A DNA stretch of 64,000 nucleotides from positions 62,001 through 126,000 of the forward strand of contig NZ_SMAA01000005.1 of the NCBI RefSeq assembly GCF_004341685.1, given 5' to 3'. Position numbers and translations under genes: made by a program. The notes below the pieces were generated by a model, which did not search any database, was not told the DNA's origin, and was given only the letters and a program-made list of their open reading frames with translations. Shown piece by piece: positions 41,815 to 56,291 of the stretch. How positions within the stretch are numbered: the first letter of the stretch is position 1; the number at the start of each line of letters is the position of its first letter. Source of the stretch: Pectinatus cerevisiiphilus (GTDB lineage Bacteria; Bacillota; Negativicutes; Selenomonadales; Selenomonadaceae).

Positions 41815-43143
41815 TTATTTTCGCTTATACCAATACCAAAGGCATATTATTATTGCGGCAAACAACATTACCGCCCCAACGAGCTCGCCGTTTGTGCCAT
41901 ATAAGGGAAATACCATACCAGCTACACTCAGCACAAATACCAAAACTGGTATCTGCCAAATACTTTTAGCTGGCAAAGCTTCTACAGGAAAATAACCATT
42001 ACTGTTATTCCTTTTTACATTTGCTGACCGTTTCCACCAGCCCACGAACCCCGTTACAATAACAACAATTGTTATTATATCCAAAACAGCCCATATAATT
42101 TTAAGTGTAATTGTATCATGGTTATGAATATGTAAATCCAGGGAAGCCGCTGCAAAGGAGAGATAAGCTGGCAATGGTTCAGTATAATACTGCATACTGC
42201 CCTGCCCATCAGCACCAACAAATACCAATTGTCCCATAAATTCCGTTGGCCTGTCTTGAGCCGGTGTCAAATAAAAAACATAGCGGGAACGGTTTAATCT
42301 TTTATCCGGCATATCAATTGATAAAATATACTTTTTATTGAACTGCTGGTTTATAAAACTGATTGCCTCTGGTAAGCTAACGTGTTCGGCATTTATCTGG
42401 GGAGACATATTTTGTGATGCCGCTGCCTTTACATTGCTTATATAACTGCCATAACCAAGAGAAAATACGACGATCATCACACCACTAAAACACAAAAGGG
42501 CTGCCCATGCGGCCGTGGCTATGCCTAAAAATTTGTGCCAGCCAAACCAGCCTGCCGCTGATGAAGTATGGGAAATCTCAGCAAATCTAGTTTTCTTCAT
42601 AAATGGTTCATAAATGAATATTCCTGATACGACTGATACGAAACTCAGCAAACACATAAAACCCAAAAATACCATGCCGCCCTTGCCAAGTCCCATATAC
42701 ATATGTAATAGATGCATTATATGCATAAATTTAGCAACAAATGGAGACTTCACAACTTCTCTGTGCCAATTCTGCAAAGTATTATCATCAGGATAATACG
42801 CAACTTGCTCGCCACCCATACTCAAACGTGCATCCACAATTTTTTTACTATCCTTATCCTGGATACGGTAGAGAATACGGCCATCATCCGGTTGCACTGA
42901 AATTGCTTTTACAACTTTATTCGGATAATTTGTCAGTATAGTATTTTCACCATCTTCTACATGTTGCCAAACGGAAGAATAATTAAGTGAAGCATGCTGC
43001 ATATTCTCCTGTACCATATTATAATCATGTATTTCCATCTTAAACAAAAGCGGCAGCCCTGTAATACAGAGCAGCAAAAAGAATACGACACAAAGCAAAC
43101 TTATCCATCGATGAATCTTATACCAATACTGCACATTTGTCAT
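41815..43143 (-). CDS. PepSY-associated TM helix protein under cobalamin riboswitch
   Basis: A 442-residue inner-membrane protein of the PepSY-TM family, linked to metal-chelate or siderophore uptake and reduction in other bacteria. Four or so membrane segments are visible: one at residues 12-32, a pair near 155-215, and one or more near the C-terminus (IWAVLDIITIVVIVTGFVGWW). PepSY domains lie between them; histidines occur in LHIHNHDTITL and the HREV segment. It is placed immediately downstream of a cobalamin riboswitch with terminator, so B12 represses it; a role in corrinoid or cobalt acquisition is therefore inferred. Confidence 0.85.
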   Translation of the reverse strand: MTNVQYWYKIHRWISLLCVVFFLLLCITGLPLLFKMEIHDYNMVQENMQHASLNYSSVWQHVEDGENTILTNYPNKVVKAISVQPDDGRILYRIQDKDSKKIVDARLSMGGEQVAYYPDDNTLQNWHREVVKSPFVAKFMHIMHLLHMYMGLGKGGMVFLGFMCLLSFVSVVSGIFIYEPFMKKTRFAEISHTSSAAGWFGWHKFLGIATAAWAALLCFSGVMIVVFSLGYGSYISNVKAAASQNMSPQINAEHVSLPEAISFINQQFNKKYILSIDMPDKRLNRSRYVFYLTPAQDRPTEFMGQLVFVGADGQGSMQYYTEPLPAYLSFAAASLDLHIHNHDTITLKIIWAVLDIITIVVIVTGFVGWWKRSANVKRNNSNGYFPVEALPAKSIWQIPVLVFVLSVAGMVFPLYGTNGELVGAVMLFAAIIICLWYWYKRK

Positions 43144-43194: not shown

Positions 43195-43254
43195 TTATCT
43201 ATAAAATGACTAAGATAATCCCCTCCCTATCGCTCGCAGGTAATAATGGTGATT

Positions 43255-43415
43255 TTTAAACAGGCAGTTCTCCTGACTTAGGTTCATTACCTTATCGCGT
43301 CTTCCCAGTAAAACCAGTGACATTTTGCGATAGACTCCCCTTACAGTGGCGGGACCGTGCCGGTTTTTACCGGCTTCTCTATTAAGTCTTACGACACCTG
43401 TTCGACAATATTCAG
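43255..43415 (-). promoter_or_regulatory. Cobalamin (B12) riboswitch
   Basis: The minus strand shows the conserved blocks in order: AACAGGTG, a GCCGGTAAAAACCGGC hairpin, the core GGTCCCGCCACTGTAAGGG, TGGGAAGACGCG, and AAGTCAGGAGAACTGCCTGTT. This is a standard AdoCbl-type aptamer with a downstream terminator. It controls the PepSY protein gene. A frame running across 43210-43455 is only a by-product. The rest of the 334-bp gap holds the promoter and terminator. Confidence 0.94.
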
Positions 43416-43426
43416 TTACAATAACA

Positions 43427-47474: not shown

Positions 47475-48266
47475 ATGCAGGAACTTTATTCCATAGGTGA
47501 CACCGCTAAAATCATGGGAATTTCTGTGCAGACACTACGTAACTATACCAATATGAAACTTGTCATGCCACAACATATAGACCTTGAAACAGGCTATCGT
47601 TATTATTCGTTTAAACAATTTCACTATATCGACCGTATCAAATATCTGCGTTCACTTGGTATGTCACTCGCAGAAATAGCAGAAATTCTGCAAAATGGAA
47701 AACCAGACAAACTACTTGTCCACCTTGAGGCACAAAAGAAAAAATTGATTTGGGAACTCAAGGAAATGGTCGATCGTTACGAAGACATTGACTGGTATAT
47801 TAACTACTTCCAATACCTTAACCATTATCGTATAGAAAATGTTCCATATATACTACACTTTGAAACACGCCACCTAATGTATGTTGACTATCTTAGCCAA
47901 GATACAATAGAAAGTGTAGAAACGCGTCTAGCCAAACTAAAAAACAAAGCTAATATACCATATCGACGCCAATATGGTTATATAATAGATTTTCACGATT
48001 TTTTACAAGGTGAATTTACACCGCAAAAGTATTTCACTTATCTCAAGGATAAACCAACAGATGTCACTAATGACAAATATTTACATCTACCCGCTGGCCT
48101 TTATCTATGTTTATGGGTTACTAAACGCACCAACATGAAAACTGATTTAATAAAAAAATTCTTTTCAGAACATCCTGCGCCTTCCTTTTCTATTGCTAAC
48201 GAATACGAAGACAGCCTTGTAGAATACCATTACTGTCCATATGAAATTCAGACACTGATACGATAA
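47475..48266 (+). CDS. MerR-family transcriptional regulator with GyrI-like effector domain
   Basis: A 263-residue regulator. The MerR winged HTH is at residues 1-70 (YSIGDTAKIMGISVQTLRNY, GYRYYSFKQFHYIDRIKYLRSLG), followed by a dimerisation helix (LLVHLEAQKKKLIWELKEM) and a C-terminal GyrI-like/BmrR-type ligand domain rather than a metal-binding Cys loop. It should therefore sense a small organic molecule. Two nearby promoters with the 19-bp spacer typical of MerR targets (48359-48389, 52118-52148) are probable sites. It is followed by a terminator and the first PLP-lyase gene. Confidence 0.9.
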   Translation: MQELYSIGDTAKIMGISVQTLRNYTNMKLVMPQHIDLETGYRYYSFKQFHYIDRIKYLRSLGMSLAEIAEILQNGKPDKLLVHLEAQKKKLIWELKEMVDRYEDIDWYINYFQYLNHYRIENVPYILHFETRHLMYVDYLSQDTIESVETRLAKLKNKANIPYRRQYGYIIDFHDFLQGEFTPQKYFTYLKDKPTDVTNDKYLHLPAGLYLCLWVTKRTNMKTDLIKKFFSEHPAPSFSIANEYEDSLVEYHYCPYEIQTLIR

Positions 48267-48358: not shown

Positions 48359-48389
48359 TTGACTTTATAGCCGTTATAGACTTTAGACT
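48359..48389 (+). promoter_or_regulatory. MerR-type promoter of the first lyase operon
   Basis: TTGACT (48359-48364) and TAGACT (48384-48389) are separated by 19 bp instead of 17, the spacing that MerR-family activators correct by DNA distortion. The spacer contains TATA-GCCGT-TATAGA, a partly symmetrical site centred as in MerR operators. It matches the promoter at 52118-52148 position by position (TTGACT-TATA-N5-TATAGA-TTA-CT). Confidence 0.75.
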
Positions 48390-48462
48390 TAGCTTATGCC
48401 TAAGCGAATTTATATTTTCTACACAGGCTGTTAATTCCACATTCGACTAAGGAGGATGTAAC

Positions 48463-49659
48463 ATGAAAGATCCTATAAACTTTTCCGAAGCTACCGAAAT
48501 TTTATACCAAGGTGAAGATTACTCACAACTTTTAAAACCAGAAGCCGCTCCTATTTATGTAACTACAGCATTCAATATGGGGGACCTTGACGATGTACAA
48601 AAAACTTATGACCAAAAAGGTTATACCTATATTCGCACCAGAAACCCGAACCGCCGGTCATTAGGTGACCTGATTTCATTTCTAGAAAAAGGTAAACGCA
48701 CACTTATCTGTTCTTCTGGTATGGCCGCAATCACGACGACCTATTTTGCTCTTCTAAATCCTGGTGATCATTTTCTCGTCAATGAAAATATATATGGAGA
48801 AACATTTGATGCCATCAATATTTTCCTAAAAAAGATGCATGTTGATGTTGACTACGTTGATTTTTCCGACCTTACAGCAGTGAAAAAAGCAATAAAGGAT
48901 AATACGCGCATCGTTTATACGGAAGTTGCGTCTAACCCGACTGACAGACTTGCTGACATTGCCGCACTAGCAGACATTGCCCATGAAAAACATGCTTTAA
49001 TGATGGTTGACAATACCTTTACTACCCCCATAGCAATAAAGCCACTATCTCTCGGTGCTGATATAGTCATAAACAGCCTCACAAAATTTATAAATGGTCA
49101 CAGTGACGCCTTGCTCGGTTCCATTACTGTAAAAGATGACAACCTATTTGACACGATACATTCCATACGCATGTTAACTGGAACTTCTGGCAGTCCTTTT
49201 GCCACATGGTTAGTCTATCGTGGTATACACACCCTTGATTTACGTGTTCGCAAACAAATGAAAAATGCCGCTCTTTTAGCAAATACTTTAGCAAAACATC
49301 CTAAAATACTTCACGTCAACCATCCAGCTTTGGATAATTTTCCGCAAAAAGAACTGGCAGACAAACTTTTTAAGGACAAATATACTATGACAGGTATGCT
49401 CAGTTTTGAGATGCCAAACGATCACTCCAAAATAAATGCTTTTATGAATCGTCTTCATATAGCTCATTATGCCCCAACATTAGGTGGTATACGCACCACA
49501 TTATCACATCCACTTCATTCTTCGCATTATCACGTTCCCAAAGATGAACTAAAAAAAATGGGGATATCTTACGGCCTCATGCGTATATCTACAGGCATAG
49601 AAGATGCCGATGATCTAATAGCTGATTTTACCCAAGCTTTAAGCGTTTTTGACGATTAA
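48463..49659 (+). CDS. Cys/Met-metabolism PLP-dependent enzyme (trans-sulfuration family), copy 1
   Basis: A 398-residue PLP enzyme of the cystathionine gamma-synthase/methionine gamma-lyase family. Visible are CSSGMAAITTTYFALLNPGD, the active-site tyrosine in NIYGETFDA, the cofactor strand MVDNTFTTPIAIKPLSLGAD and the Schiff-base lysine in NSLTKFINGHSDALLGS. The R-x-NP(T) segment is altered to TRNPNRR. It is paralogous to the enzyme at 54624. A lyase or gamma-elimination role on a sulfur amino acid is likely, but the exact reaction cannot be read. AAGGAGG precedes the ATG; it is first in the operon. Confidence 0.87.
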   Translation: MKDPINFSEATEILYQGEDYSQLLKPEAAPIYVTTAFNMGDLDDVQKTYDQKGYTYIRTRNPNRRSLGDLISFLEKGKRTLICSSGMAAITTTYFALLNPGDHFLVNENIYGETFDAINIFLKKMHVDVDYVDFSDLTAVKKAIKDNTRIVYTEVASNPTDRLADIAALADIAHEKHALMMVDNTFTTPIAIKPLSLGADIVINSLTKFINGHSDALLGSITVKDDNLFDTIHSIRMLTGTSGSPFATWLVYRGIHTLDLRVRKQMKNAALLANTLAKHPKILHVNHPALDNFPQKELADKLFKDKYTMTGMLSFEMPNDHSKINAFMNRLHIAHYAPTLGGIRTTLSHPLHSSHYHVPKDELKKMGISYGLMRISTGIEDADDLIADFTQALSVFDD

Positions 49660-49680
49660 TATTACACAGGAGTGCTGTTT

Positions 49681-50412
49681 ATGGAAGAATTATCATCTAT
49701 AATAGAGAAAATGATCTGTACTGAAGTAGCAGCTAATCCGCTTGAATACCGGGAACCGATCATTGGTTATGCGGATGCCAACGATCCTTTATACAACACA
49801 TTAGATGAAAAGATTGGTGCTAAACAATTTCATCCGCAAGAAATGCTGCCCGATGCAAAAACTGTCATTGTTTACTTTATTCCGTTTCCAGAAACATTAA
49901 TTCGCGCCATTCGCCAAGATCAGCACACAGTTCCTATATGGTCACAGTATTACGATGCTACCAATAAACTGCTCGATAAAATAGGTAAAAATATAATCAA
50001 AAAAATGGCCACTTTTAACATAAAAGGTGCAATGGATCCGCCAACAGAAAATTTTGATCTTATCTCCCTTACAGGTCATTGGGCCCATAAAGCTTCTGCA
50101 GTGATTGCCGGAATTGGCACCTTCGGCCTTAATCATCTTTTAATCACACGGCTTGGCAGTGCAGGCAGGCTTGGCAGTGTTGTTATAAATGCTAAGATTC
50201 CTCCCACTTCACGTCCAGTTTCTTCTTATTGTCTTTATTACAAAAACGGAAAATGCCGTGTTTGTGCAGAAAAATGTCCCAGTGGTGCCTTAACAACAGA
50301 ACGATTTGATAGATTTCGCTGCAATGCTTATCTCGACGGAAAAAACATAAGAGATGACCAACAGGGTTGTCCCTTATGCAGTTCTGGTCCATGTGCTGAT
50401 AAGGGTTTTTAG
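49681..50412 (+). CDS. Small iron-sulfur protein with ferredoxin-like double cluster domain (QueG-like)
   Basis: A 243-residue cytosolic protein. The C-terminal third carries CRVCAEKCPSGAL (CxxCxxxCP) and later QGCPLCSSGPC, enough for one or two [4Fe-4S] clusters. The N-terminal part (AKTVIVYFIPFPETLIRAI, GTFGLNHLLITRLGSAGRLG) resembles the cobalamin-binding domain of epoxyqueuosine reductase, but the protein is only about two thirds of QueG length. It is probably a different redox enzyme using a corrinoid or flavin. The ATG at 49681 follows AGGAG; it is 21 bp after the lyase gene. Confidence 0.75.
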   Translation: MEELSSIIEKMICTEVAANPLEYREPIIGYADANDPLYNTLDEKIGAKQFHPQEMLPDAKTVIVYFIPFPETLIRAIRQDQHTVPIWSQYYDATNKLLDKIGKNIIKKMATFNIKGAMDPPTENFDLISLTGHWAHKASAVIAGIGTFGLNHLLITRLGSAGRLGSVVINAKIPPTSRPVSSYCLYYKNGKCRVCAEKCPSGALTTERFDRFRCNAYLDGKNIRDDQQGCPLCSSGPCADKGF

Positions 50413-50422
50413 GGAGTGCAAT

Positions 50423-51184
50423 ATGAGTTGTTATACAGACAATGAACATAAAAAAGGAATAAACGCTACCCTTTATTGGCAAGCAAATCCACCTAAAACA
50501 GCTGTTGAATTTTTCCTTTATGGTGAATATTGTTATCGTTTATACGACTTTCGTGAAGCTTTAACAGCCTATAAATATGCTGCCGAAGATGAAGTTGGTG
50601 CCCTCTTCCAGTTAGCATACTGTGTTCTGCATGGATATGGAACTCCTGTCAATAAAGAAAATGCCACTAAATATTTCAAACTGCTACTTGAAAAGACTAA
50701 CGAAAAAGAAGCACGTCATTGTTATTATCGGGGGATGTGTTTTTGTTATGGTTATGGAACCATTAAAGATGAAGAACACGCGTGGTCCTTATTTGCAACC
50801 TGTTCAGAAAAAATTGAGTCAGCTCTTTATGAACAAGGTCTATTTTTTCTTGAAGGAAAAATATTTGCTAAAGATATAGCAAATGCTGTCTTTTATCTAC
50901 GCAAAGCCTATGACCTGGGTGAAGAACGAGCTATATTTGCCATGGAAAAATTATTTTCTATATATGAAAAACCTTATCCTGATCATATTGAACTTACGCA
51001 AGCGTATGCATGGCGTTTAGGTAGAATTTTGCGGGCAGCAGAAAAATCACCATGCCGCGAATATTATTTACGCCTGTCCGCTTGTTATAGGCATGGCTTT
51101 CCTAATGATTCTCAAGATAACAAGAAAAAATTTTTACGTCTAGCAGATAAATACCAAAAGTTTGCTGAAACTTTGCCATTATAA
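50423..51184 (+). CDS. Sel1-repeat (TPR-like) protein
   Basis: A 253-residue protein with three or more Sel1 repeats: LFQLAYCVLHGYGTPVNKEN, YYRGMCFCYGYGTIKDEEHA and QGLFFLEGKIFAKDIANAVF, each a helix pair with the G-x-G turn. Sel1 repeats bind partner proteins. No signal peptide is seen, so it is probably cytosolic. The ATG at 50423 follows GGGAG and lies 10 bp after the Fe-S gene; co-transcription is almost certain. Its role in the operon is unknown. Confidence 0.82.
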   Translation: MSCYTDNEHKKGINATLYWQANPPKTAVEFFLYGEYCYRLYDFREALTAYKYAAEDEVGALFQLAYCVLHGYGTPVNKENATKYFKLLLEKTNEKEARHCYYRGMCFCYGYGTIKDEEHAWSLFATCSEKIESALYEQGLFFLEGKIFAKDIANAVFYLRKAYDLGEERAIFAMEKLFSIYEKPYPDHIELTQAYAWRLGRILRAAEKSPCREYYLRLSACYRHGFPNDSQDNKKKFLRLADKYQKFAETLPL

Positions 51185-51225
51185 TCATTTTATATAATAT
51201 TATTTTTATTGAGGATGATAACGCT

Positions 51226-52104
51226 TTGACCAATATAGGAAAATTCATTCCATTGGTATTAGCCACTTTTCTGTGGGGGCTTCAACCAATCGCTGTAAAA
51301 ATATTGCTTCTACAATATTCTACTGCTACTATAATCTTTTTCCGTTCCACCGCCATGTTATTTTTCTATATTATATTAATGAAATTATATAATGTATCCT
51401 TATTGCCAAAGTTATCAATAAAAAAATGGAGTATTCTATTTTTAATGGGTCTTACAGGAACAACCATATGCAGTATTTCACAATATGAAGGGCTGCGCTA
51501 TGCCCCCGTCTTTCACTGTGTTTTATTTGGTGCAACAGTTCCGGCCATTACTGCGTGCATGGCTCGCATATTTCTAAAAGAACGATTATCGTTATTACAG
51601 TGGGGTGGTATTCTCCTCTCTTTTTTTGGCGTACTATTTATGTTGACTAAAGGTGCTGTGCTGCAACTTCTGACCGAACCTTTTAATATAGGTGATATCC
51701 TGTTTTTTATTAATGAATTATCTTGGTCTGCTTACATTATAGCCAGTCGTTACATTCTAAAAGATTTATCTATTTTACAGGTCACTACACTATCCAATTT
51801 TATTGGTATTATCACACTCATTCCATATATTTTGAATATGGGCGGACTAAACTTAGTCATCCCAAATATGAATTCACTTTTTGCTTATGTATTCGTTGTC
51901 ATTTTTAGTGGTGTTTTAGCTATGTTAGCTTGGAATAAAGGTATTAATATGGTAGGCACAAAAGGAGCCGTATTTAATAATGTTACACCTTTTACTGGTC
52001 TCATTTTTGGTAACCTTATTTTAGACGAACTTATCAACAGTGCTGACCTTATTGGCCTTGTTGCCGTTAGTTGCGGTATTTATATTCTAATGTACCAAAA
52101 ATAA
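51226..52104 (+). CDS. EamA/DMT-family transporter
   Basis: A 292-residue inner-membrane protein with ten hydrophobic segments in two EamA repeats (PLVLATFLWGLQPIAVK at the start, LFFINELSWSAYIIASRYIL in the second half). DMT transporters commonly export amino acids or drugs. The start is a TTG at 51226, about 10 nt after GAGGA. It lies 42 bp after the Sel1 gene and closes the first part of the operon; a new MerR-type promoter begins just after it. Confidence 0.86.
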   Translation: MTNIGKFIPLVLATFLWGLQPIAVKILLLQYSTATIIFFRSTAMLFFYIILMKLYNVSLLPKLSIKKWSILFLMGLTGTTICSISQYEGLRYAPVFHCVLFGATVPAITACMARIFLKERLSLLQWGGILLSFFGVLFMLTKGAVLQLLTEPFNIGDILFFINELSWSAYIIASRYILKDLSILQVTTLSNFIGIITLIPYILNMGGLNLVIPNMNSLFAYVFVVIFSGVLAMLAWNKGINMVGTKGAVFNNVTPFTGLIFGNLILDELINSADLIGLVAVSCGIYILMYQK

Positions 52105-52117
52105 TTTTATTTTTTTC

Positions 52118-52148
52118 TTGACTCTATAATAAATATAGAGATTATCCT
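52118..52148 (+). promoter_or_regulatory. MerR-type promoter with perfect dyad, second operon
   Basis: TTGACT (52118-52123) and TATCCT (52143-52148) are 19 bp apart. A perfect dyad CTCTATA-ATAAA-TATAGAG (52122-52128 and 52134-52140) overlaps the -35 and fills the spacer, the textbook MerR operator layout. It shares TTGACT-TATA-N5-TATAGA-TTA-CT with the promoter at 48359, so the same regulator is expected to act on both. Confidence 0.8.
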
Positions 52149-52233: not shown

Positions 52234-52287
52234 AAAGATGTTTTGAACAATTTTCTTTTATGAAAATTATTTAAAGCATCTTTTTTT
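52234..52287 (+). terminator. Leader terminator between the MerR-type promoter and the ABC operon
   Basis: A 22-bp stem (AAAGATG...TTTTC with GAAAA...CATCTTT, one mismatch, two G-T pairs), a 6-nt loop and TTTTTTT. It lies about 80 nt after the promoter start point and before the binding-protein gene, so it may act as an attenuator or end transcripts from the upstream operon. Confidence 0.72.
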
Positions 52288-52373
52288 ATACATCAAGGAG
52301 GCTACATATAAATCAACATCCATATTTTTACTGTATAAATTTATTTCAACTAAAAGAAAGTGAGTGTATATTA

Positions 52374-53171
52374 ATGAAAAAAATTATTGTTATTGGTTTA
52401 TTCTTTTCTATTTTTACTGCATTAGCAACCGGTTGTATTTTTTCTAACAATCAAGCATCTGACAAAAAAACTCTTAAAGTTGTTACATATGCCAAATGGA
52501 ATCCTTTTGAATATGTAGATAATGGTAAAGTCGTCGGTTTTGATATTGATCTCATAAAAGCACTGGCCGAAGATGCAGGATATGACTGCAATATCCAAGA
52601 CGCAGGATGGGACCCTATGTTTGTTCAAATAAAAGACAAATCTGCCGATGCCGCAATTGCAGGAATTACTATTACGGATGATCGTAAACAGACATACGAT
52701 TTCTCTAATCCCTACTTTGTCTCAAGGCAATCTATAGTAGTAAAGAACGACAGCAGCATACAAAATGCCAATGATTTAATAGGAAAAGTTATTGCAGTAC
52801 AAAGCGGTAGTACAGGACAAGAAGCTGTAGAAAAATTAATAGGAAAAAATGATGAACACATAAAAAAAATAAAAGGAGGACTCACCTATATAGAATTATT
52901 ACATGGAACTGCAACCGCAGTGGTTGGTGACGACACCGCAAACAAAATTTTTGTCCAAGAAAACCCTAATGACCAACTTAAAATTATTGAAGACAAAGAA
53001 AATTTTGCCCCTGAATATTTTGGCATAATGTTCTCAAAAGGAAGTACTTTAAATGCAAAAATGAATGAATCTCTAAAACATATTATTGACAATGGTACAT
53101 ATACAGAAATTTATCAAAAATGGTTTAAAACAGAACCTAATTTAGATGAACTTAAAGCCCTGCAAAAATAA
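52374..53171 (+). CDS. Amino acid ABC transporter, substrate-binding lipoprotein (second system)
   Basis: A 265-residue SBP_bac_3 protein with a lipoprotein signal: MKKIIVIGLFFSIFTALA then the lipobox ATGC. The mature part has AKWNPFEYVDNGKVVGFDID, AAIAGITITDDRKQTYDFS and QSGSTGQEAVEKL. It captures a polar amino acid outside the inner membrane. Given the flanking Cys/Met enzymes, a sulfur amino acid such as cystine is a reasonable guess only. It is first of a binding protein-permease-ATPase operon. Confidence 0.9.
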   Translation: MKKIIVIGLFFSIFTALATGCIFSNNQASDKKTLKVVTYAKWNPFEYVDNGKVVGFDIDLIKALAEDAGYDCNIQDAGWDPMFVQIKDKSADAAIAGITITDDRKQTYDFSNPYFVSRQSIVVKNDSSIQNANDLIGKVIAVQSGSTGQEAVEKLIGKNDEHIKKIKGGLTYIELLHGTATAVVGDDTANKIFVQENPNDQLKIIEDKENFAPEYFGIMFSKGSTLNAKMNESLKHIIDNGTYTEIYQKWFKTEPNLDELKALQK

Positions 53172-53190: not shown

Positions 53191-53850
53191 ATGATAGATT
53201 TTCGTTTTGATATTATTACGGAATACTCCCACTTTTTTCTAATGGGGACATTATTAACTATAGGCTTATCTTTAGCAAGCGTTTTTTTAGGTTCATTATT
53301 GGGATTATTTATTGCTATCGGTGAGTTGTTGGAAAATAAAGTTCTTGCCTTCATCTTCAAAGCCTATGTGGGATTTTTCCGTGGCACTCCACTTTTTGTG
53401 CAGATACTTATTATTTATTTTGGTGTCATTCCAGCTCTATTTGGTGAAGCAAATGGAATTGTCTCCGCTATTACAGCATTATCCCTAAACGCAGGAGCAT
53501 ACATAGCCGAGACAATTCGCGCAGGAATACAATCTATAAGTCGAGGTCAAGCAGAGGCTTCCCGCTCATTAGGTATGAATAAGTTTCAATCTATGCGCTA
53601 CATTATCCTGCCACAAGCAATACGGCGCATTTTACCAGCTCTCGGTAACGAATTTATCAGTCTTATCAAAGATTCCTCACTTGCTTCAACAATAGCTACT
53701 CCCGAATTAATGTATTGGGCTCAATCAATGAATGCCCAGTACTATCGTGTTTGGGAATCTTACATATCTGTAGCGTTAATCTATCTTATCCTTACTCTTA
53801 CTGCTAATTTTATTCTAAAACATTTTGAAAAGAAGGTGCCTGTAAAATGA
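53191..53850 (+). CDS. Amino acid ABC transporter, permease (second system)
   Basis: A 219-residue HEQRO-type permease with about five membrane segments. [20 protein letters not shown] is the first, [18 protein letters not shown] the family motif and [20 protein letters not shown] the EAA loop. It follows the binding protein by 19 bp and overlaps the ATPase start by 4 nt (ATGA). Confidence 0.92.
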
Positions 53851-54605
53851 TAAAAGTAACAGATTTGAAAAAAGCTTTTGATGGAAATGTCATTCTAAAA
53901 GGCATCAATCTTGATATCAATGCCCAAGAAGTTGTTGTTCTGATAGGTCCATCTGGCGCTGGTAAGTCAACTTTTCTTCGCTGTCTAAATCAACTCGAAA
54001 CTATTAACAGCGGTCACATATTTATCAATGGAGAAGATATAACTAACCCTAAAGTAGATATCAATAAAATACGCCAAAAATTAGGGATGGTATTCCAAGA
54101 TTTCAATCTTTTCCCCCATATGACAGTTCTTGAAAATATTATGATTTCACCAATGAAAGTAAAACACGAGTCACATAAAACAGCTTATGAAACCGCTATA
54201 CAACTTTTAAATAAAGTAGGCCTGCTCAACAAAGCCACTGCCTATCCTGATGATTTATCCGGTGGACAGAAACAACGTATTGCAATTGCCCGCGCTTTAG
54301 CAATGAAACCTAGTGTTATGCTTTTTGACGAACCTACTTCTGCACTTGATCCTGAAATGGTTGGTGAAGTTTTAGCTGTTATGCAAAATCTTGCCAGAGA
54401 AGGAATGACTATGATAGTTGTAACCCACGAAATGGGGTTTGCCCGCGAAGTAGGTAATCGCATTATTTTTATGGATAGAGGCTACATAGTTGAAGAAAAT
54501 TCTCCTCAAAATCTTTTTTCGCATCCTCAAAAAGAACGCACAAAAGCATTTCTTAGTAAAATATTATCTTCCCAAAATAATACACTGAATACACTGCAAT
54601 TGTAA
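53847..54605 (+). CDS. Amino acid ABC transporter, ATP-binding protein (second system)
   Basis: A 252-residue ATPase: Walker [11 protein letters not shown]-loop [12 protein letters not shown], signature LSGGQKQR, Walker [14 protein letters not shown]-loop VTHEMGFA. It is closely similar to the ATPase at 12167 but has a short insertion ([17 protein letters not shown]). It is coupled to the permease by overlap, with the second PLP-lyase gene 18 bp downstream in the same operon. Confidence 0.93.
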
Positions 54606-54623: not shown

Positions 54624-55820
54624 ATGTTTAAAGAAACAAACAAAAAATTTTCTTTTGAAACCGAATTATTACGCAGCGGTGCATATACACGCTACCCTGT
54701 GACCAATCCAGAAAGCATGCCCATTTACATGACCACAGCATTCAATGTAGAGGATTTGGATGATCTCGAACAAAGATATAAAGAAAAAGGCTTTTGCTAT
54801 AACCGTAATCGTAATGCCAATCGCAGTGCATTGGCAGAATTACTTACTCAAATGGAAAATGGAGATAATGCAATTGTCTGTTCTTCAGGAATGGCTGCTA
54901 TTTATACTTCAATCATTTCCATAGTTAAAGCCGGTGATCATATTATTGCTGACCAAACACTTTATGGTGAAACAATAGAAATATTCACAGAAATAATGAA
55001 AAACTATGGGGTTGAAACAACTTTTACTGATTTCACAAATTTAGACTTAGTAAAAAGCAGCATTCGCCCCAATACCAAGTTATTTTATACTGAATCTATT
55101 GCGAATCCAATGATCACCATCTCCGATATTGACGAACTTGGTAATATTGCCCACACCAATAATGCCTATCTAGTCGTTGATAATACTTTCATGACCGCAG
55201 TAGGATTTAAACCACTTGAACATAATGCCGATTTAACAGTAATAAGCCTGACAAAATTTGCCAATGGGCACAGTGATGCTGTCTGCGGTGCCATTATTGG
55301 TAAAAATGAACTTATTGACCAGGCGTATAAGATGCAAATTCTTACTGGCTGCACAGCAGATGCTTTTACTTCATGGCTTGTTTCAAGGGGCATGCGTACT
55401 ATGTACTTACGAGTAAAAAAACAAATGGAAAATGCCCTAATACTAGCAGAAGCGTTAGAAAAATCACCATATGTTAAAAAAGTAAATTATCCTGGTTTGA
55501 AATCCCATCCGCAATATAAATTAGCGTGTCGGTTATTTCAAAATGGTTTCGGTGGTATGATAAGCATCATCCTGCCAGAAAACAGAGAAAAAATGAACGC
55601 TTTTATGCGTAGATTAAATCTTGCCCATTATGCTATGACGCTTGGTGGTTACCGGACTACATTATCGTATCCAGTACTATCATCCCACTATGACATGCCA
55701 GAAAAAGATCGTCTCAAAATTGGTATTACAAACGGCATGATGCGCATTTCTGTTGGCATCGAAAACGCCAATGATTTAGTAGAAGATTTCCTTCAGGCAC
55801 TGACTGTTTACTCAAAATAA
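54624..55820 (+). CDS. Cys/Met-metabolism PLP-dependent enzyme (trans-sulfuration family), copy 2
   Basis: A 398-residue paralogue of the enzyme at 48463, of the same length. Key elements are CSSGMAAIYTSIISIVKAGD, the tyrosine in TLYGETIEI, VVDNTFMTAVGFKPLEHNAD and the PLP lysine in SLTKFANGHSDAVCGA. The usual R-x-NPT motif is replaced by NRNANRS, a further departure from the family than copy 1. Its place directly after an amino acid importer suggests that it degrades or converts the imported compound. The product may be an enamine, which fits the RidA gene that follows. Confidence 0.87.
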   Translation: MFKETNKKFSFETELLRSGAYTRYPVTNPESMPIYMTTAFNVEDLDDLEQRYKEKGFCYNRNRNANRSALAELLTQMENGDNAIVCSSGMAAIYTSIISIVKAGDHIIADQTLYGETIEIFTEIMKNYGVETTFTDFTNLDLVKSSIRPNTKLFYTESIANPMITISDIDELGNIAHTNNAYLVVDNTFMTAVGFKPLEHNADLTVISLTKFANGHSDAVCGAIIGKNELIDQAYKMQILTGCTADAFTSWLVSRGMRTMYLRVKKQMENALILAEALEKSPYVKKVNYPGLKSHPQYKLACRLFQNGFGGMISIILPENREKMNAFMRRLNLAHYAMTLGGYRTTLSYPVLSSHYDMPEKDRLKIGITNGMMRISVGIENANDLVEDFLQALTVYSK

Positions 55821-55895: not shown

Positions 55896-56291
55896 ATGGA
55901 AAAAAAATACAATAAACCCCTGCAAAGTATAATGGATGAAAATACACCAATGATTATTGGTCCCTATGTACAGGCCATGATATATGGTGACTTAGTATTT
56001 ATTTCTGGGCAAATCGCCATTGACCCTGTCAGTGGAAAAATACCATCTGATATAGAAACCCAAGTCAGGCAAGCAATAAAAAATGCTGAAATTATTCTCA
56101 CTCAAGCTGGCTCCAGCTTAAAAAGAGCTATCAAAGTCAATATGTACATGACAGATTTAGATGACTTTCCTACTATCAATCGCATCTATCAAGAATTATT
56201 CAATATTTCTTACCCTGCTAGATCGTGCATGGAAGTCAGCCGTCTACCAGGTGGGGCAAACTTTGAAATTGACATTGTCGCTGCAAAATGA
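55896..56291 (+). CDS. RidA/YjgF-family enamine/imine deaminase
   Basis: A 131-residue RidA-family protein. These trimeric enzymes hydrolyse reactive enamine/imine products of PLP enzymes such as 2-aminoacrylate. Conserved parts are IIGPYVQAMIYGDLVFISGQ, IAIDPVSGKIP and the C-terminal SCMEVSRLPGGANFEIDIVA, including the arginine-bearing patch (ARSCMEV) of active members. The N-terminus is about 10 residues longer than usual. No ribosome binding site precedes the ATG; two mini-frames lie just upstream (55866-55896). It is the logical partner of the lyases in this operon. Confidence 0.9.
   Translation: MEKKYNKPLQSIMDENTPMIIGPYVQAMIYGDLVFISGQIAIDPVSGKIPSDIETQVRQAIKNAEIILTQAGSSLKRAIKVNMYMTDLDDFPTINRIYQELFNISYPARSCMEVSRLPGGANFEIDIVAAK

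Follow-up and report, generated by a model that had tools for sequence, protein, structure and literature searches.

The locus and its two operons

We describe a pair of putative MerR-type promoters, P1 and P2, in Pectinatus cerevisiiphilus, together with the adjoining MerR-family regulator gene and the two lyase-containing operons that the promoters precede. They lie within a stretch of 64,000 nucleotides (assembly GCF_004341685.1, contig NZ_SMAA01000005.1, positions 62,001 to 126,000), which is referred to as the window. Operon membership was assigned from strand and gene spacing. Operon 1, which follows P1, comprises the lyase1, QueG-like, Sel1 and EamA genes; operon 2, which follows P2, comprises the genes for a solute-binding protein (SBP), a permease and an ATPase of the ATP-binding cassette (ABC) type, lyase2 and a RidA-family protein. 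Both lyases are assigned to the gamma family of pyridoxal phosphate (PLP)-dependent enzymes. The features, all on the plus strand, are the following.

47475..48266, +: MerR-family regulator, 263 amino acids (Pfam MerR_1, E 7.8e-15; AlphaFold2 model)
48359-48389, +: putative promoter/operator P1 (-35 TTGACT, spacer TTATAGCCGTTATAGACTT, -10 TAGACT)
48463..49659, +: lyase1, Cys/Met metabolism PLP-dependent enzyme, gamma family (Pfam PF01053, E 3.7e-116)
49681..50412, +: QueG-like protein, 243 amino acids, with conserved cysteines of the CxxCxxxCP and CxxC..GPC types (TIGR00276, 44 bits)
50423..51184, +: Sel1-repeat protein (Pfam Sel1, E 7.3e-9)
51226..52104, +: EamA-family transporter, a possible exporter (Pfam EamA, E 1e-36)
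52118-52148, +: putative promoter/operator P2 (-35 TTGACT, spacer CTATAATAAATATAGAGAT, -10 TATCCT)
52234..52289, +: terminator-like hairpin with U-run, a possible attenuator, in the leader that separates P2 from the SBP gene (folding, comparison of leaders)
52374..53171, +: ABC SBP, family 3 (Pfam SBP_bac_3, E 1.4e-38)
53191..53850, +: ABC permease (best NCBIfam match a cystine permease, under that model's cut-off)
53847..54605, +: ABC ATPase (best NCBIfam matches GlnQ and TcyN, both under cut-off)
54624..55820, +: lyase2, Cys/Met metabolism PLP-dependent enzyme, gamma family (Pfam PF01053, E 4.6e-118)
55896..56291, +: RidA-family protein (NCBIfam TIGR00004, 132 bits against a cut-off of 106)

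The two promoters can be read directly from the sequence, as the original prediction had it. At both sites TTGACT is followed by a spacer of 19 bp that holds the common element TATA-N5-TATAGA, and both 31-mers fit TTGACT-x-TATA-N5-TATAGA-xx-TTA-xx-CT. The perfect dyad claimed for P2 is present as well: CTCTATA-N5-TATAGAG at 52122-52140 is a 7-5-7 palindrome in which 7 of 7 arm positions pair, and its P1 equivalent, CTTTATA-N5-TATAGAC, pairs at 5 of 7. The dyad centre falls on position 14 of the 31-mer in both cases, inside a spacer of the length (19-20 bp) that marks MerR-family promoters. The MerR gene adjoins P1 on its upstream side, with 92 bases between the end of the gene and the site, and each promoter heads one lyase operon. 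According to excerpts of a survey, MerR proteins bind a palindrome within a 19- or 20-bp spacer and activate transcription by kinking the DNA, and all 28 of the 28 confirmed MerR-family promoters covered there have spacers of 19 or 20 bp (PMC7722741).

Rarity of the operator in window and genome

Only four places of the form TTGAC-N20-TANNNT exist on the two strands of the window, and P1 and P2 are the only ones with at least 5 of 7 dyad pairs. Among 300 windows simulated with a first-order Markov model, 15 had at least one such place with 5 or more dyad pairs, none had two and none had a 7/7 dyad. Over the whole genome (2.63 Mb) the pattern TTGACTNTATANNNNNTATAGA has two perfect matches, P1 and P2, none at one mismatch and 11 at two mismatches, a count that is circular if taken alone because the pattern was derived from P1 and P2. 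Up to three mismatches, the totals (57+48) barely exceed those of the reversed-pattern control (53+40). Two perfect sites make for a very small regulon, in agreement with the prediction. A multitude of unrelated genomic matches was set aside as an objection. Six of the 11 places at two mismatches were inspected: four lie inside open reading frames (ORFs) and two between genes, in L116 and at L113:2141, the latter close to a second MerR gene of the same genome.

The sites near that second gene (L113:4225-5091, contig C2), at L113:2141, 5159 and 5266, stand beside ABC-transporter-like genes, also have a 19-bp spacer and are of the type TTGACA ... TATATA; two of them match TTGACTNTATANNNNNTATAGA at three mismatches and L113:2141 at two. 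A second MerR regulon with a different operator is possible in this genome.

Conservation of the sites in relatives

Our comparative analysis drew on 189 genomes of the family, a genus sample of five within it and a phylum sample of 398; G000 denotes the source genome. Genes outside the window, namely those called MATE-, 3-hydroxyacyl-CoA-dehydrogenase-, YbaK- or pyrF-like, peptide-transporter and small MerR-like, were named by eye. MerR matches at E 1e-3 occur in 66 of the 189 family genomes, and beyond E 1e-60 only in G000, Pectinatus haikarae (G045, locus L035), Propionispira raffinosivorans (G048, locus L036) and G178, the next match being at 2.8e-16. Relatives of the regulator beyond the family are found in a Bacillota metagenome-assembled genome (MAG; G577, locus L109) with 60% identity, in Anaeromicropila populeti (G578) with 52% and in Anaerotruncus (G579) with 43%.

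In both P. haikarae and P. raffinosivorans, one site separates the MerR gene from lyase1, and the other precedes the same SBP gene as P2 does. The pattern used to search these two loci had no -10 box, and all four sites show TAnnnT at 19 bp; the 19-bp spacing is independent evidence for these four sites only, as the other patterns fixed it. Within the genus sample, orthologues of the regulator (84%), lyase1 (90%) and the QueG-like protein (83%) accompany two perfect sites in G045, just as in G000; the remaining genomes G043, G044 and G046 lack a perfect site, and their homologues are all distant (best MerR 27%, lyase 37%, QueG-like 35%). A small second MerR-like gene was seen shortly downstream of RidA in P. 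haikarae (L035:16434-16787) and none at that place in the window.

The MAG has two sites, one between the MerR gene and lyase1 (in L109) and one divergently before a peptide-type ABC operon that is followed by lyase2. Anaeromicropila has five, which precede genes for a 3-hydroxyacyl-CoA-dehydrogenase-like protein, the QueG-like protein, lyase1, a kinase-like protein of 206 amino acids and an SBP. All seven sites lie within about 16 kb around the respective regulator, and at up to two mismatches no site was found elsewhere in either genome (4.2 Mb for Anaeromicropila); the reversed pattern gave one match in each. The 3-hydroxyacyl-CoA-dehydrogenase-like gene is linked to the module in the MAG (L109:4370-5257) and in Anaeromicropila (L107:3339-4295, where an operator of its own precedes it), and none was seen in the two operons of the window.

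Held-out tests of the operator

A motif-free scan of the distant loci for TTGA[CT], a dyad and a -10 box at 18-20 bp returned three sites beside the MAG and Anaeromicropila regulators. Of the seven distant sites, these three came from that scan and four were recruited by a pattern partly defined by the window sites. Because the seven are thus not fully independent of the window, a matrix was also built from the three alone; over the 64 kb it ranks P2 first (30.6) and P1 second (22.3), followed by 14.7 (P2 on the reverse strand) and 11.2. The seven-site matrix gives 32.4 for P2, 24.8 for P1 and 11.7 for the next place, and ten shuffled windows peak at 6.2-14.7.

Turned into a pattern (TTGACWYTRTRNNNNNKRYAGABNNTA), the seven distant sites have seven perfect matches when all 189 genomes of the family are searched. 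G000, G045 and G048, the three in which the identity of the regulator reaches 62% or more, contribute two each, and G186 contributes a stray one; the reversed control has none. The nine-site consensus, allowing one mismatch, has eight matches in five of these genomes, six of them perfect and located in G000, G045 and G048. A stricter pattern applied at up to one mismatch to the phylum sample retrieved G000 (2) and G542 (1). The genome scan, the matrices, the pattern search in 189 genomes and the Markov windows together reject chance as the origin of P1 and P2. The co-occurrence of regulator, operators and targets across genomes lends support to the predicted MerR-family regulation, as far as comparison of sequences can.

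The regulator and its clade

The regulator consists of a MerR helix-turn-helix (residues ~5-75), a long helix (77-117) and a GyrI-like effector-binding domain (~120-263). Its N-terminal winged helix-turn-helix is recognized by Pfam MerR_1 (55.2 bits, cut-off 21.6) and MerR (33.4, cut-off 28.2), and no Pfam match in the sequence covers the GyrI-like domain, which becomes apparent from the predicted structure. The AlphaFold2 model (mean pLDDT 89.9, pTM 0.71) has its best fold match in BmrR (3d6y_A; Z 17.2, 258 residues aligned, root-mean-square deviation (rmsd) 3.8, 19% identity), and model residues 120-263 superpose on the BmrR effector domain (1bow) with Z 11.2 over 126 residues (rmsd 3.2).

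Eleven regulators form a clade against 45 other MerR proteins (FastTree support 0.998). The latter are proteins of 230-340 amino acids from loci L009-L034, L061-L078, L080-L082 and L113 (a locus dropped out if it had no ORF of this kind), and a weak locus (L089, 40 residues matched) was removed before the clade was defined. A gamma-family PLP lyase is encoded nearby in 11 of 11 clade loci versus 0 of 22 other MerR loci (L061-L078, L080-L082 and L009), a comparison that is not fully equal because the control flanks were about 1.5 kb and the clade flanks longer; the lyase lies ~1.5 kb away across one gene in G540 and ~0.8 kb away beside the C13 copy of G547.

The effector-domain residues W107, E243 and Y256 are found in all 11 clade members and in none of the 45 other MerR proteins, and R165 and Q166 each in 10 of 11 and 1 of 45. 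These clade-specific residues hint that the members may share one dedicated ligand. C212 was considered as a clade-specific thiol sensor and rejected, given that 12 of the 45 others have it and BmrR, too, has a cysteine there. In the recognition region, the motif LRNY[ST]N is present in 5 of 5 regulators with the canonical operator, i.e. the type shared by P1 and P2, and in 0 of the 6 other clade members, which have H or Y at its first N.

Lyases and accessory proteins

Both lyases match PF01053 and retain the lysine of SLTK, which is invariant in the lyase alignment and which we take to be the PLP-binding residue, in line with gamma-family Cys/Met enzymes. Their best matches among solved structures are methionine gamma-lyases (E 2.7e-75 for lyase1 and 3.1e-81 for lyase2). 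Unlike these, they lack the active-site cysteine: YGE stands in lyase1, in lyase2 and throughout the lyase alignment (14 of 14), and YGC in the two aligned methionine gamma-lyases, its cysteine presumably being the catalytic-site Cys116. The window lyases are not typical methionine gamma-lyases because of this exchange, and their TIGR01328 scores (313 and 300) are under the cut-off of 549.7. RidA clears reactive enamines arising from such lyases.

The QueG-like protein has no Pfam match, its TIGR00276 score is under the cut-off of 200, and its structural model is poor (mean pLDDT 59.4). The window, L035, L036, the MAG and Anaeromicropila all have its gene close to lyase1, of which it is a conserved partner. 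Elsewhere in the window, a cobalamin riboswitch (Rfam RF00174, 108.4 bits; 43246-43416, minus strand) lies upstream of a gene for a membrane-type protein of 442 amino acids (41815-43143).

A hairpin in the leader of operon 2

A strong hairpin with a U-run behind it, its local fold at -18.7 to -23.3 kcal/mol, occurs in four of the five leaders of transporter operons, namely those of the window, L035, L036 and L109. These hairpins have a common AAAACAAAG start, and shuffling gave z-scores of -2.69, -2.77 and -1.83. The fifth leader, that of Anaeromicropila with 53 nt, has neither a U-run nor such a hairpin. None of ten other leaders has a comparable structure, the lyase1 leader of G547 showing a weak hairpin (-8.6) before a U-run. 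In the MAG the leader points away from the MerR gene, so its hairpin is not the terminator of a preceding gene on that strand. No Rfam family reached its gathering threshold in the operon 2 leader, so that neither a riboswitch nor a T-box was recognized there; the sub-threshold match was Plastid-psbA-2, a plastid 3' untranslated region (24.1 bits, threshold 55.8). Attenuation of operon 2 is put forward as a lead, not a finding.

Interpretation and alternative explanations

P1 and P2 are very probably MerR-type promoters at which the adjacent BmrR-like regulator would activate both lyase/transport operons by DNA distortion; binding and activation by this protein are inferred. The regulator dimer would sit across the over-long 19-bp spacer of either promoter, and once a small molecule occupies its effector domain, it would distort the DNA such that the -35 and -10 boxes are realigned. 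Operon 1 (lyase1, QueG-like, Sel1, EamA) and operon 2 (amino-acid-type ABC importer, lyase2, RidA) would then be switched on together. The targets, an importer, two lyases and RidA, suggest a substrate-induced catabolic module, and the effector is most likely a compound that the lyases consume or release, namely a sulfur amino acid or one of its S-conjugates.

Several observations weigh against this interpretation. The -10 boxes of both promoters, each matching TATAAT at 4 of 6 positions, are a weak point, in P1 combined with an imperfect dyad. The nine-site consensus has one match (G165) in its reversed control. G043 and G046, which have no orthologue of the regulator, contain one match each at one mismatch, located between YbaK-like and pyrF-like genes (G043, L090) and overlapping an ORF (G046, L093); we judge them to be due to chance or to another regulator. 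At up to two mismatches the canonical operator was not found in G178, whose regulator is 47% identical, in Anaerotruncus, in G540 or beside two of the three paralogues of G547, and the third (the C13 copy) is flanked by two sites at two mismatches only. In Anaerotruncus, a looser scan made after the canonical one had failed detected another dyad, AGACCTT...AAGGTCT, centred as in the canonical operator and combined with TACAAT at a spacing of 19 bp. Finally, operators of the canonical type are not confined to lyase regulons, because the one-mismatch site of G542 precedes a MATE-like gene; a related MerR gene lies beside a MATE-like gene on another contig of that genome.

The same promoter mechanism could serve a BmrR-type sensor of toxic compounds, with a xenobiotic effector, the EamA protein (in Anaeromicropila a MATE-like one) as efflux pump and the lyases removing S-conjugates. 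BmrR is indeed the closest solved relative, the EamA gene belongs to operon 1, a MATE-like gene follows lyase2 in Anaeromicropila and a similar operator is found at the MATE-like gene of G542. However, the recurring partners are lyases and importers, the stretch inspected in Propionispira holds no EamA homologue, none of the operons in the window, L035 or L036 was seen to include a MATE-like gene, and the clade-specific residues hint at one dedicated ligand, so that we regard a toxic-compound sensor as unlikely. A different division of labour would have operon 2 controlled chiefly in its leader, where the hairpin would stop transcription unless relieved by a signal, and the MerR protein would set the rate of initiation only. 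The restriction of the hairpin and U-run to transporter leaders, their common start, the z-scores and the orientation of the L109 leader away from MerR speak for this scenario, but the exception of Anaeromicropila, the Rfam result with its single sub-threshold plastid match and the scant space for an antiterminator 5' of the hairpin in L036 and L109 make it rather improbable.

It is hardly credible that P1 and P2 are ordinary promoters or are governed by another factor, such as the second MerR protein or a repressor that reads the AT-rich dyad. The genome is AT-rich, and the second MerR (22% identical) stands beside 19-bp-spacer sites of its own, but these read TTGACA...TATATA, not TATAGA. The occurrence of 2+2+2 sites together with the regulator orthologue and the distribution of LRNY[ST]N, present in the five canonical-operator regulators and in none of the other six, likewise argue against this possibility.

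Relation to known systems and significance

The closest known system is BmrR of Bacillus subtilis, a multidrug-binding activator whose fold is matched over the full length of the predicted regulator; its bmr promoter likewise has a 19-bp spacer enclosing a palindrome, as an excerpt of PMC7722741 states. Differences are the low identity (~19-20%), the residues W107, E243 and Y256, which are clade-specific among the proteins compared (BmrR being outside that alignment), and the predicted targets, which are lyases and importers instead of a drug efflux pump. The metal regulators MerR, ZntR and CueR typically have a short metal-binding C-terminus. In contrast, the effector domain of the Pectinatus regulator is GyrI-like, and no metal-efflux targets were seen here. 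The MerR/ZntR/CueR regulons resemble the present one in a strong palindrome within a 19- or 20-bp spacer and in few genes per genome, to judge from parts of PMC1526738. In open PubMed Central, searched chiefly by titles and abstract openings, we found no paper describing a MerR-controlled lyase regulon.

Reports on Pectinatus describe the spoilage of beer by hydrogen sulfide and methyl mercaptan (excerpts of PMC9601789 and PMC12732517). A wider scenario is offered only tentatively: a BmrR-like branch in several Bacillota families might sense a sulfur amino acid or S-conjugate in a dedicated pocket and join import, C-S cleavage and export into one module with additional RNA-leader control of the importer/lyase2 operon, and in Pectinatus it could be the switch behind sulfurous off-flavours in beer. 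For this genus, the operators offer a precise and inexpensive way of testing how the predicted sulfur-amino-acid lyases are controlled, and the comparison would extend MerR control of the BmrR type beyond drug efflux, to a module of amino-acid lyases and importer that occurs in several bacterial families.

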